Assembly: GCA_027484575.1 (NCBI GenBank) | Contig: JAIXSQ010000004.1 | Span: forward strand, 186,001 to 250,000 | From: Comamonadaceae bacterium | GTDB taxonomy: Bacteria > Pseudomonadota > Gammaproteobacteria > Burkholderiales > Burkholderiaceae_C | Reading direction: 5' to 3' | Length of the DNA stretch: 64,000 nucleotides | Shown: piece by piece, positions 29,694 to 34,046 of the stretch | Layout: the number at the start of each line of letters is the position of its first letter | How positions within the stretch are numbered: the first letter of the stretch is position 1 | The notes under the pieces: model-generated | Seen by the model: only the letters and a program-made list of their open reading frames with translations | Database searches by the model: none | Told to the model about the DNA's origin: nothing | Made by a program: the position numbers and the translations under genes

Positions 29694-30845
29694 TCAGGCG
29701 GGCTGGCCCGGCTCGACGCCGCGCTCGAAGCGCAGGGTGACGCAGGTGCCCTGCCCCGGCTGCGACGCGACCTCCACCAGGCCGCCGGCGTCCTGCAGCA
29801 CGCGCTGGCAGAACAGCAGGCCCATGCCGTTGCCCCCGCGCGTGCTGGGCACCGGCTCGCGCGTCAGGCGCGGCAGCAACTCGGGCGGGATGCCGCGCCC
29901 GTTGTCGGAAAACCGGATCCAGCCGCGCGGTGCGGGTCCCGCCGCCTCGCAGCCGGCCTCGATGCGCAGCCGCGGCTGCGGATGCCCGCGCAGCGCCTGC
30001 AGCGCGTTCTTGGCCAGCGTGGTCAGCACCAGGTACAGCAGGTCGCGGCGTGCGGTGAGGCGGAAATCCTGCTGCACCTGCGCCACCACCCAGCAGCGCT
30101 CGTCGTGCTCGAACGGGAACTCGTCGAGCAGCGACTGCAGCAGCCCCGAGGCGGACACCGAGGGGCTGGCGCGCCCCGGGTAGGCATCGCGGGCGGACTG
30201 CACGAAGCTGGAGACCAGCGACTGGCAGTACAGCGCGCGGCGTTCGGCGCGCTCCAGCGCCTCGAGCAGCTCGCCCGGGTGGTGTTCCTCGACCAGCGCG
30301 GTGCCCGGCGGCAGGCCCGGCACCGGCGGACGCAGCCGGCCCGCGATGGTGGAGACCACGCCGCGCACGGTGGCCAGCGGCGTGTTCAGCTCGTGCGCCA
30401 GGAAGCCCAGGGTCTCGCGCAGGGCCGACACCCGGCCCTCGTTGAGGGCGCGCTCCAGCGCCTGGGACCGGTAGGTGGCCAGCGCCTCGCGCAGGGCCTC
30501 GCGTGTGGCGGCGTCCTCCAGGGGCTTTTCGAGCAGGCGGAAAACGCGGCCCTGGTTGACCGCGGCGATCGCCACCTGCTTTTCGGCATAGGCGGTGACC
30601 AGCAGCCGCAGCAGGTGGCGGTGCGCCTGGTGCACCTGGCGCAGCAGCTCCAGGCCGTCCATGCCCGGCATGCGGTAGTCGGTGACGACGGCGGCGATGC
30701 CCGCGCCGGGCGCGGCCAGCTGCGCCAGCGCCTCCTCGCCGGAGGCGGCGACGGCGATGTCGAACTCGCCGCCGAAGGCGCGCGCGAACCACTTGCGCGA
30801 GGTGGCCTCGTCGTCGACGAACAGGATGCGGCGTGCTTCGGGCAT
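29694..30845 (-). CDS. Soluble hybrid: receiver domain followed by histidine kinase
   Basis: A 383-residue cytoplasmic protein. Residues 1-115 are a receiver (FVDDEATSR; phospho-acceptor Asp56 in VVTDYRMPG; KP at 108-109). A kinase core follows: H-box FLAHELNTPLATV with His151, N-box LAKNALQAL, G1 FSDNGRGIP and G2 GGNGMGLLFC. There is no membrane segment or DNA-binding domain. It starts 14 bp after the CqsS-like kinase stop and is the last gene of the signalling operon. It probably receives phosphate from the membrane kinase HPt; its own output partner is not in the window. Confidence 0.9.
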   Translation of the reverse strand: MPEARRILFVDDEATSRKWFARAFGGEFDIAVAASGEEALAQLAAPGAGIAAVVTDYRMPGMDGLELLRQVHQAHRHLLRLLVTAYAEKQVAIAAVNQGRVFRLLEKPLEDAATREALREALATYRSQALERALNEGRVSALRETLGFLAHELNTPLATVRGVVSTIAGRLRPPVPGLPPGTALVEEHHPGELLEALERAERRALYCQSLVSSFVQSARDAYPGRASPSVSASGLLQSLLDEFPFEHDERCWVVAQVQQDFRLTARRDLLYLVLTTLAKNALQALRGHPQPRLRIEAGCEAAGPAPRGWIRFSDNGRGIPPELLPRLTREPVPSTRGGNGMGLLFCQRVLQDAGGLVEVASQPGQGTCVTLRFERGVEPGQPA

Positions 30846-30859
30846 GGCGGTGGCCGATG

Positions 30860-33367
30860 CTAGCGGCCGGCCGCCTCGCGCGGCTGCCGCGCCGCATAGG
30901 CACGCAGCGCGTCGGAGGTGCGCGTGGCCAGTGCCTGCAGCCGGCCGAGCCAGCCGGCCTCGGGCGGCCAGCGCCGCTCCTCGAGCACCGGCACGTACAG
31001 CCGGCGCACCTCGCGGTACAGCGCCTGCGCGCCGGCCTCGCCGCTCATGCCCAGCAGCGCGTGCAGGGCGTCGCGGGCGGCATCGAGCTGGCCGTCGCGC
31101 ACGGCCTCGCCGAGCACGCCCACCAGGCGGTCGATCTCGGGCAGGTAGTCGGCCAGCAGCTCGTCGAGCATGCCCAGGCGCTGGTAGCCGGCGAGCCGGC
31201 CCTCGTTGAGCAGGGGCAGCTCGTCGCCGGCCACCGGCTCGACCGCCGGCAGGGGCGGCAGCGAGCCGGGACGCGGCACCGGGCGCGCGCCGGCCAGCAG
31301 GTGGCGCACCGACTCGACCAGCTGCGCCGCATCGACCGGCTTGACCAAAAAGCCGTCCATGCCCGCGCGCCGGGCCGCCTCGATGGTGGGCGCGTCGGAG
31401 TGGGCGGTGAGCGCCACCAGCGGCACGCCGGCCCAGGGCTGGCCGCTGCCGCGGATGGCCCGCGCCGCCTCGAGCCCGTCCAGGCCCGGCATGTTCAGGT
31501 CCATGAGCACGGCGTCGATGCCGCCGGCCTGCAGGCGCGCCAGCGCGGCCGCGCCGTGGTCGGCCTCGGCGACCTCGGCGCCGGCCTCGCGCAGCCAGGC
31601 CCCCACGGCGCGGCGGTTGAAGGCGCTGTCGTCGGCCAGCAGCAGCCGCGCGCCGCGCAGCTGCCCGGCCTGCGCCCCCGGCGGGCGCTGCTGCAGCACC
31701 CGCTGCAAGCCGCGCGCCAGCGCCAGGGCCTCGCAGGGCTTGGCGACAAAGCCGTCCATGCCGGCGCGCTGGGTCTTGACCCGGGCCACGTGGACCGGCT
31801 CGCTGGTGTGGGCCACGATGCGCACGTCGCGGTTGGCCGGCACCTCGCCGCCGCGGATGCGCTGGGCCAGCTGGTAGCCGTCGAGCACCGGCATGGTCAG
31901 GTCCAGCAGCACCAGGTCGTAGGCATGCCGGGCCAGCAGTTCGAGCGCGCGCTGGCCGTCGACAGCCTCGTCGACGTGCAGCTCCAGCGGGCGCAGCTTG
32001 TGCCGGGTGGTCAGGCGCTGCGCGGCGTCGTCCTCGACCAGCAGCAGGCGCCGCCCGGCCAGCACCGTGCGCGCCTCGCGCAGCACCTGCGCCCGGTGCG
32101 CCTCGCGGTCGGCCTCGGGCACCGGCGGCAGCCGCAGGGTGAAGAGCGTGCCCTCGCCCGGCTGCGACGTGCAGCGGATGTCGCCGCCGAAGGCCTTCAT
32201 CACCCGCTGGCAGTAGGCCAGGCCCAGCCCGGTGCCGCCGGTCTTGCCGGTCGAGCGGAAGGGCTGGAACAGCTGCGCCAGCTGCTGCTCGGGGATGCCC
32301 GGGCCGTTGTCGCGCACGTGCACCGCCCCGCTGCCCACCGTGATGCGCACGTGCAGGCGCGGCTGCAGCCCGGCGTAGTACAGGGCGTTCTTGATCAGGT
32401 TGAACAGCACGAACAGGAACGCGGTCTCGTCGCCGCGGAACTCGAAGTCGTCGGCCACGTTCACCGACACCCGGCCGCGGGCCTCCTCGGAGTCGTAGGT
32501 GTACTCGTCCACCGCCTTGCCGACCACCTCGGCGGCCGACAGCACGGAGAAGGTCGCCGGGTCGGGCGGACGGGCGCTGACCTCGTCGAGCGTCATCGAG
32601 ATCACCTGCAGGCCCCGCTCGATCGCCTGCTCGCCCTGCGCTAGGTGCCGGTACAGCGCCTCGACCGCGGGCGCGGGCACCGGCGGCATCGCACCGCTGG
32701 CCCCCGGGGGCGGCAGCACCTTCTGCATGCCCTCGAGGCTGTGGCGGATGCGCGCCAGCGGATAGCGCAGCTCGTGCGCGATCGAGCCGGCCAGCGCCTG
32801 CGTGGCGCGCAGCTTGCGCTCGGTCTCGATCTGCTCGGTCGAGAACTTGAACAGGTTGGCGCCCACCGCGATCACCAGGTAGGCGGGCACCTGGGCCAGC
32901 AGGTCGGGCGGGACCGGCCGGCCGGGGTCGACCAGCTCGTACACGCCTGCCGCCGCCAGCGTGCCCACCACCAGCATCAGGAAGGTGTTGCGCCAGTCGG
33001 TCAGCATCACGGTGAAGCACAGCGCGATGAAGCCGTTGGAGATGGCCGGCACGCCGCCGCCGCGCTCCAGCGCCGTGAACACGGTGAAGAACGGCAGGCT
33101 CAGGACGATCGCGAACCAGGCGAACGGGATGTACCAGGGCTTGAGCCGCTCGGGCCAGAAGTCCTTGGCCGCCAGCCCGGCCATGGCCAGCAGCACCAGC
33201 AGGCGCAGTTCGACGTCGTCCAGCGGCTGCGGGTTCGGCCGCGTGAAGCGGATGAAGTAGAACGCGCTGAAGGCTGCCAGCCCCAGCCAGCCCATGTACT
33301 TCAGCCGCGGCGGGCCGTAGGCGTGGTAGTCGTGGAAGTGGCGGTAGAAGTAGCGCACCAGCTTCAT
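30860..33367 (-). CDS. CqsS-like membrane hybrid histidine kinase (TM-HK-REC-REC-HPt)
   Basis: An 835-residue sensor. About six membrane spans lie within residues 25-175; the opening [20 protein letters not shown] and the following pattern strongly recall the ligand-sensing domain of CqsS/LqsS quorum-sensing kinases. The H-box is [14 protein letters not shown] with His198, near the position of the CqsS phospho-His, then N-box [16 protein letters not shown] and [10 protein letters not shown]. Two receivers follow (LLDLTMP and LMDLNMP) and a C-terminal HPt motif [12 protein letters not shown]. The ATG overlaps the stop of the GNAT-like gene (ATGA). No cqsA-type synthase is adjacent. Confidence 0.88.
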
Positions 33368-34046
33368 TGCAGCACCAGGGGCCGGCGGGCCGGCAGGTCG
33401 TCGCCGATCGCGCGCTCGATCGCGTCCACGTCGCCGTGGATCAGGACGTACGGCTCGTCACCGGGGCAGCCGCCCAGGTCGCGCGCGATGACCTCCATGC
33501 CGAAGCGGCGGTACAGCCGGGCCAGCGCGGGACGGCAGGAGGCGAAGAAGTGGCGCGCATCGGTGTGGTCCATGACATGCGCCAATGTGAGGCACAGGCA
33601 GCGCCGCAGCAAGTCGGGACCTCCACGGTGGCCGGGGTCCAGCACCAGCCGGCCGACCTCCCAGGCGTTCTCGCGCAGGGCGGGCGGGATGCCGCCGGCC
33701 CGCTCGAGCAGCGCGTCGCAGGGGGCGATGCCCTGCCCCATGGGCAGCACGCGGATGGTGCCGAACACCGTCCCGGCCCAGTCGAAGGCGCCTACGACGC
33801 CCAACGCGTCTCTTTTTTTTCGAGCCGAGCGAAGTCCGGGGCCGCCCGCAGCTCGGCGGGCAGCGCGATCTCTTCGCGCAGGTGGGCCACCCGGCGCAGC
33901 TGGGCCGCGCCCCGGGCGCGCAGGAAGCGCACCTCGTCGGGCGCGATGGCCGCCGGCACGGACGGCGGCAGCGCGGCCGCGGGATGTGGAACGAGGACGG
34001 GACCGGACGGCGCCGCGGGCGCGGCACCGGCGATGGACAGGCTCAT
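33364..34046 (-). CDS. FeeM/LuxI-like GNAT protein, read through a -1 frameshift at a run of eight A
   Basis: Two overlapping frames make one 227-residue product. The first frame starts at ATG 34046 (AGGGAG ribosome site) and would stop at 33792 after only 84 residues. Just before that, codons GAA AAA AAA (run 33820-33813) allow a -1 slip into the frame that ends at 33364. The downstream part ([10 protein letters not shown], then [16 protein letters not shown], and [15 protein letters not shown]) has the E-x-x-R-L pattern and layout of N-acyl amino acid synthases and autoinducer synthases of the GNAT fold. The 3' end is ATGA-coupled to the CqsS-like kinase. A stem GACGC-GTTGG-GCGTC follows the run by two bases. 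Sequencing error or a true pseudogene remain possible. Confidence 0.65.
33813..33820 (-). other. A8 slippery run (candidate programmed -1 frameshift or transcriptional slippage site)
   Basis: In the coding sense CTC GAA AAA AAA GAG contains the A-AAA-AAA heptamer in register. A -1 shift continues as AGA GAC GCG TTG into the long downstream frame. A homopolymer this long is exceptional in so GC-rich a sequence. The predicted stem-loop downstream occupies 33810-33796. Confidence 0.6.

Follow-up and report, generated by a model that had tools for sequence, protein, structure and literature searches.

Can a gene that is divided between two reading frames supply the synthase for a signal sensed by the kinase encoded beside it? 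The question is raised by three linked minus-strand genes in a 64-kb stretch of DNA (the window: positions 186,001 to 250,000 of contig JAIXSQ010000004.1, assembly GCA_027484575.1) from the 4.4-Mb genome of a Comamonadaceae bacterium, which encode a GNAT-family protein, a hybrid histidine kinase and a separate receiver-kinase, in that order. A preliminary description of the window had proposed these genes as a cassette for signal synthesis and sensing, in which the GNAT enzyme replaces CqsA, which, like LqsA, is a synthase of the pyridoxal-phosphate (PLP) type. The GNAT gene turned out to be split at a run of eight A's that is conserved in relatives, a group of soil and water bacteria; this conserved frameshift, absent from the preliminary description, is the most striking trait of the cassette. 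We consider it probable that a recoded FeeM-like synthase and the CqsS-type sensor beside it make up a small-molecule signalling cassette. Its parts are as follows.

33813..34046, minus strand: GNAT gene, N-terminal part; zero frame, 78 codons, opening with ATG 34046 and running through the slip site's second AAA; relatives hold homologous zero-frame N-terminal parts.
33808..33821, minus strand: slip site GAAAAAAAAGAGAC; zero frame GAA AAA AAA GAG, with the −1 frame resuming at AGA GAC.
33364..33813, minus strand: GNAT gene, catalytic part; −1 frame, 149 codons and TGA; resembles FeeM and acyl-homoserine lactone (AHL) synthases by Pfam family PF21926 (E 7.5e-10), alignment A1, and the model of a relative with its fold search.
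30860..33367, minus strand: hybrid histidine kinase, 835 residues; CqsS/LqsS-type membrane sensor, H198, receivers with D489 and D623, HPt-like H769.
29694..30845, minus strand: soluble receiver and histidine kinase, 383 residues; D56, H151; PhcR-like domain order.

The linkage of the three genes is as first described: the kinase start overlaps the GNAT stop (TGA 33366–33364) as ATGA, the receiver-kinase starts 14 bp beyond the hybrid-kinase stop, and the phosphorelay residues listed above are all present.

A GNAT gene in two reading frames

The GNAT product had been given as 227 residues. The length is right for the two parts joined (78 + 149), but the gene is not a single open reading frame: the parts lie in two frames that meet at GAA AAA AAA GAG AC and are connected by a −1 shift at GAAAAAAAAGAGAC, whose run of eight A's (A8) occupies positions 33820–33813 of the minus strand. 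Left unshifted, translation from ATG 34046 terminates at TAG 33794–33792, just beyond the run, and yields 84 residues; in the −1 frame, the catalytic part continues without a stop as far as its TGA. No other A8 run occurs in the window, where the chance expectation is 0.01, and GAAAAAAAAGAGA is found once in the 4.4-Mb genome. Across the loci described below, the unshifted reading ends 3–84 codons past the site (median 19), producing a short protein that lacks the catalytic domain.

We compared the site in two overlapping sets of loci, whose counts are not additive. Within the window's genus, Ramlibacter (in which Caenimonas is included), 42 of 59 genomes had a GNAT match (E≤0.001), and 40 loci were fetched again and examined together with the window (one matching genome, G045, lies outside these 40). 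An A8 run that demands the same −1 shift was present in 36 of the 41 genus loci, even though the catalytic parts of the relatives are only ~37–58% identical to that of the window. Three of the remaining loci (L085, L087 and L090) have no run and a single frame, and two (L082 and L089), which appear to be poor assemblies, were counted as lacking the site. The second set comprised 43 named loci collected with an alignment as the query; a single-protein query of the same contigs gave no match. Here the slip site was present in 35 of 43 loci from at least five genera, including Polaromonas, Caenimonas, Paraburkholderia and Hydrogenophaga, and the eight others were in frame. The statistics that follow rest on 35 loci, namely 34 of the named loci plus the window; the Ramlibacter terrae locus L128, which is broken further on, is counted in the 35 of 43 but is left out of the statistics. 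Thirty of these sites read GAAAAAAAAGAGAC, three end in GAGAT, one ends in GGGAT, and one has a run of nine A's (A9). A motif search that made no use of the protein matched 12 of 399 family genomes, with nine of the 12 matches falling inside the GNAT gene and representing five genera, whereas the reversed motif, used as a control, matched five of the 399.

Both halves of the split gene are, judging from their substitution patterns, coding. Mismatch frequencies at codon positions 1, 2 and 3 were.51,.45 and.60 upstream of the site in the zero frame and.40,.34 and.58 downstream of it in the −1 frame, so that the third position was the most variable in both. In-frame homologues also locate the junction exactly: in alignment A2 the N-terminal parts finish at EKK and the C-terminal parts open at KKRD or KKKD, while the in-frame homologues continue across that point, and the predicted junction ELEKKRD is encoded in one frame by a Hydrogenophaga homologue (L125; ELEKKRDACG). 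The arginine codon at the site is AGA in 33 of 35 loci, as against 20 of 439 arginine codons elsewhere in the C-terminal parts.

On a midpoint-rooted tree that included the junction columns, all 35 slip-site genes fell within one clade of 38 rows (support 100/100), beside three in-frame rows. The frame state changed three times on this tree, and none of 500 shuffles gave so low a number. The site is best read as one old gain followed by two or more losses, a direction that depends on the midpoint root. Alignment A1, searched against 398 other genomes of the order, gave no match at E≤1e-15 among the best candidates scored, at most nine per genome.

Two of the Ramlibacter loci deserve separate mention. 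Ramlibacter monticola (L126, also sampled as L087) has two tandem pairs of a GNAT gene and a shorter hybrid-kinase gene; the GNAT gene that we examined there occupies a single frame and lacks the A8 run, and the cassette is paralogous. In Ramlibacter terrae (CP053418; L128, also sampled as L089) several insertions or deletions besides the A8 site break the cassette genes, and these are probably assembly errors.

How the frame may change

Taken together, these patterns lead us to regard the split GNAT gene as a case of conserved recoding, by a ribosomal −1 shift or by slippage of RNA polymerase, and not as an error. Ribosomal shifting has clear precedents at such sequences. Ribosomes are known to shift −1 at the heptamer A_AAA_AAA (PMC3711429, PMC5009743), and the shifts measured in magnesium chelatase cassettes amounted to 10% with seven A's and 40% with nine (PMC3711429).

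Several observations weigh against this account. A Shine–Dalgarno-like element upstream of the site was found in none of the 35 loci, compared with 39 of 315 background windows. Nor was a clearly conserved RNA structure detected: mean fold z ranged from 0.13 to −0.86 over eleven windows and 46 sequences and was lowest upstream of the site. With neither a Shine–Dalgarno-like element nor a conserved downstream structure detected, the slip signal seems to consist of the A run by itself. In addition, the part of the −1 frame that is open ahead of the site contains an ATG in three of the 35 slip-site loci, and an ATG, GTG or TTG of any kind in 11 of the 35; the window is one of the three with an ATG, so an internal start may serve there. 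Finally, the GNAT protein of the window sits on a long branch (1.12).

The same two absences would fit a transcriptional origin of the recoding, in which polymerase slips on the A8 run, so that some transcripts gain a ninth A and can be translated with no ribosomal shift. The resulting protein would be the same, and such a variant is compatible with everything else that we propose for the cassette. Runs of more than seven A's are listed among transcriptional realignment sites in the GeneTack paper (PMC3711429), yet the heptamer and the magnesium chelatase measurements speak for the ribosome, and polymerase slippage would not by itself account for the conserved GAGA behind the run. We put transcriptional slippage somewhat below an even chance.

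Changes of run length in the DNA itself, which would turn the synthase on in some subpopulations and off in others, seem very improbable to us. Such a switch could be imagined for a homopolymer that lies within the coding sequence of a probable signalling component, and phase variation at poly-A is known (PMC3711429), but the run is exactly A8 and out of frame in 34 of the 35 loci, and at the single A9 locus an adjacent change keeps the −1 shift necessary. Because a switch should show both on and off lengths, this near-constancy disfavours it. Gene decay or a sequencing error, suggested by a reading frame that splits at a homopolymer in a copy on a long branch, is scarcely credible and is contradicted by the identical site in dozens of Comamonadaceae and Burkholderiaceae genomes, by the retention of both halves, and by the A1 invariant residues that the window copy retains.

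The GNAT family and the adjacent sensor

To which family does the recoded protein belong? The preliminary description had placed it near FeeM and LuxI, and the profile search agreed with the first of these: the catalytic half scored 39.2 bits against the Pfam FeeM family, above the cut-off of 27, and five of the six in-frame relatives given to the search matched the same family. Pfam LuxI (PF00765) was not listed for the catalytic half at E values up to 1, and NCBIfam assigned no family to either part of the GNAT protein. The best sequence match in the PDB for a profile of the catalytic half was the AHL synthase TofI, a weak match (E 0.016) in which the RD, RL.P and WE..R segments were aligned. 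For structural comparison the in-frame relative L125 was modelled (predicted local distance difference test 90.2, predicted template-modelling score 0.84), and the model, along most of its chain, matched the folds of FeeM (Z 15.2 over 169 residues), LasI (15.1 over 167), TofI (14.8 over 159) and RpaI (14.3 over 171).

The structural part of this assignment has its weak points. Generic GNATs fit the L125 model equally well by Z over ~140 residues (SACOL1063, for one, has a Z of 15.5 over 140), so the FeeM/LuxI group cannot be told apart by Z alone; the Foldseek list for the model is headed by seven GNATs, with LasI in eighth place; and L125 itself has no Pfam match of any kind. The FeeM family is also broad: of 299 family genomes, 189 have a match to it, 131 of these above the cut-off, and most of the copies lie beyond those studied here.

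The genes around GNAT relatives bear on what the enzyme might do. An iron-containing redox enzyme (PF14518, an assignment tested on one of the loci) lies between the GNAT and kinase genes or just before the GNAT gene in 21 of 84 cassette loci, a count that includes repeats of the same genome, and the genome of the window matches PF14518 at two places outside the cassette. Distant GNAT relatives (31% identity) occur on 23 Pseudomonas plasmid records, and in the two loci that we opened the relative has as neighbours a gene annotated as an iron-containing redox enzyme and one of the phenylacetate-CoA-ligase family. Because redox-enzyme and ligase-family genes adjoin GNAT relatives, synthesis of a small molecule is suggested. 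The plasmid clusters, from Pseudomonas amygdali (L147) and P. coronafaciens (L148), also contain anthranilate synthase genes, and L148 has flavodoxin, EamA transporter and hydrolase genes as well; from its gene content the plasmid GNAT cluster looks like a biosynthetic one.

The resemblance of the kinase sensor to CqsS and LqsS was borne out by both profile and synteny. We built a profile (A3) from the first ~192 residues of the kinase, with 24 rows, and searched it against genomes of the class (17 of 369 matched at E≤1e-3) and of the order (17 of 399 at E≤1e-8), the window's own genome being included in both counts. The best E values for other sensors were 9.4e-38 in the class and 5.1e-37 in the order. 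CqsA was present in 19 of the 35 stretches fetched around these other CqsS/LqsS-type sensors: five of 18 in the class (L176, L182, L183, L186 and L189, all over the NF005526 cut-off) and 14 of 17 in the order, where the identification rests on tblastn with one of the five class CqsA proteins (45–54% identical) and not on a profile. In the other 16 of the 35 stretches no CqsA was seen, a count that tells against the proposed account, several of them being short contig ends. The preliminary description had also raised the possibility of a cqsA homologue elsewhere as a source of the ligand. None was found in the window's own genome (NF005526, E≤1e-3) or in the 84 cassette loci, with a 20-kb part of the window included (tblastn, E 1e-10). 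Because the A3 profile finds cqsA-linked sensors and the cassettes show no CqsA, we place the sensor with the CqsS/LqsS kind and the GNAT gene in a frequent place of CqsA; by homology the sensor is of that family, and by gene order a FeeM-like GNAT occupies the position where CqsA often sits.

Other features of the kinase are less sharply defined. Its Hpt and HisKA domains scored below the Pfam cut-offs (23.5 against 24.6 and 17.7 against 26.9, respectively), and a PDB sequence search with the sensor region gave no meaningful match. The six membrane spans ascribed to the sensor are plausible, in that a simple hydropathy scan gave six windows, but three of these overlap and the number is unproven.

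We propose that the FeeM/AHL-synthase-like GNAT would make an acylated signal, the full enzyme arising only from that share of ribosomes (or transcripts) in which a −1 shift occurs at the conserved A8 run. The adjacent CqsS/LqsS-type hybrid kinase would sense the signal and relay it through its two receivers and HPt-like domain to the separate receiver-kinase, and the shift may set or regulate the dose of synthase. That the GNAT makes the ligand of the kinase is the pivotal step of this proposal, and we hold it to be fairly probable. The opposing view is that the GNAT acylates some other metabolite or a protein, while the kinase responds to a foreign alpha-hydroxyketone or to some other cue. 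The generic GNAT folds and the breadth of the FeeM family would suit that view, which we nevertheless judge unlikely: a kinase homologue follows the GNAT gene, directly or past one redox-enzyme gene, in every one of the 40 genus loci fetched, as it does in distant paralogous cassettes (L126, L129–L131 and L133); the GNAT lies beside the sensor in the frequent position of CqsA; and its enzyme neighbours look biosynthetic.

Known systems and neighbouring genes

How does the proposed signalling cassette compare with systems already described? CqsA/CqsS of Vibrio and LqsA/LqsS/LqsR of Legionella share with it a membrane sensor family: CqsS is a hybrid kinase with phospho-His194, and the corresponding residue is His200 in LqsS (PMC3376566) and His198 here. 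They differ in that the cassette has a frameshifted FeeM-like GNAT where the PLP synthase would be, with no CqsA/LqsA found, and in that it combines two receivers, an HPt-like domain and a separate receiver-kinase. The PhcBSRQ system of Ralstonia likewise gathers a synthase, a sensor kinase and a soluble receiver-kinase in one cluster, a likeness of domain order. PhcR combines a receiver with a histidine kinase and has no DNA-binding domain; the synthase PhcB is a methyltransferase, unlike the GNAT of the cassette (PMC8578825, PMC10653808). With FeeM N-acyl amino acid synthase and the LuxI-type AHL synthases the catalytic half shares the Pfam FeeM match and, through the model of its relative, folds that extend over 159–171 residues; in contrast to them, the cassette gene needs recoding, and its partner is a two-component sensor and not LuxR, for which no search was made.

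As for the shift itself, recoding at A runs is known from dnaX and transposases, and in the −1 direction from magnesium chelatase (PMC3711429, PMC5009743). Unlike these, the shift in the cassette sits in a putative signal synthase and is needed to reach the catalytic domain. A programmed frameshift under quorum-sensing control has been described for FseA of a Mesorhizobium integrative and conjugative element (msi172/msi171; PMC5009743), but that shift is +1 and lies in a transcription activator, whereas the one here is −1 and lies in a synthase. Within the open-access literature we found neither a description of this cassette nor a case of recoding in a signal synthase. The main text of the GeneTack paper (PMC3711429) names neither Polaromonas nor Ramlibacter, and a cluster for the family may be in its supplements.

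The cassette may represent a new class of quorum sensing, in which a FeeM/LuxI-like GNAT makes an acyl compound, a CqsS-type sensor detects it, and production is gated by programmed frameshifting in the synthase gene so that the state of translation or transcription sets the threshold; we would rate this fuller proposal only just short of an even chance. Were it true, cell–cell signalling would be controlled at the ribosome or the polymerase, through recoding of a putative signal synthase. Gene finders likely split or drop such genes, so a synthase partner of CqsS-type sensors may have been overlooked. More broadly, CqsS-type sensors may pair with several unrelated synthases (the PLP enzyme, a GNAT and perhaps iron-dependent redox enzymes), which, if true, would provide a natural series for testing sensor specificity.

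Two further observations concern the company kept by CqsS-like sensors. Three CqsS/LqsS-type sensors (L178:5179-5907, L179:6571-7284 and L187:4601-5287) adjoin a PF14518 iron-containing redox enzyme, with no CqsA in the fetched stretch, and the neighbourhood suggests that this enzyme is perhaps another type of synthase for the sensor family. In a low-GC genome of the class, a YcaO-domain gene (L188:1608-2792) is flanked by two CqsS-like sensors.

The third gene of the cassette is less widely retained than the first two. The receiver-kinase contains the Pfam domains Response_reg, HisKA and HATPase_c and no Pfam DNA-binding domain. Of the 40 genus loci, 35 have a homologue (57–70% identical) behind the kinase, and two of the five misses are contig ends; conservation of the GNAT–kinase pair, which the preliminary description had named as a check, was borne out in all 40. 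In the fetched Polaromonas, Paraburkholderia and Hydrogenophaga loci we saw no receiver-kinase of more than 40% identity. In some Ramlibacter an LqsR-like regulator is encoded on the other strand a few kilobases from the cassette (L115:11319-12098 and L116:11299-12111). The cassette appears to have a stable place in Ramlibacter, because the same outside genes, those for msrB, a septation protein, an acyl-CoA ligase and a transporter, flank it in many loci.

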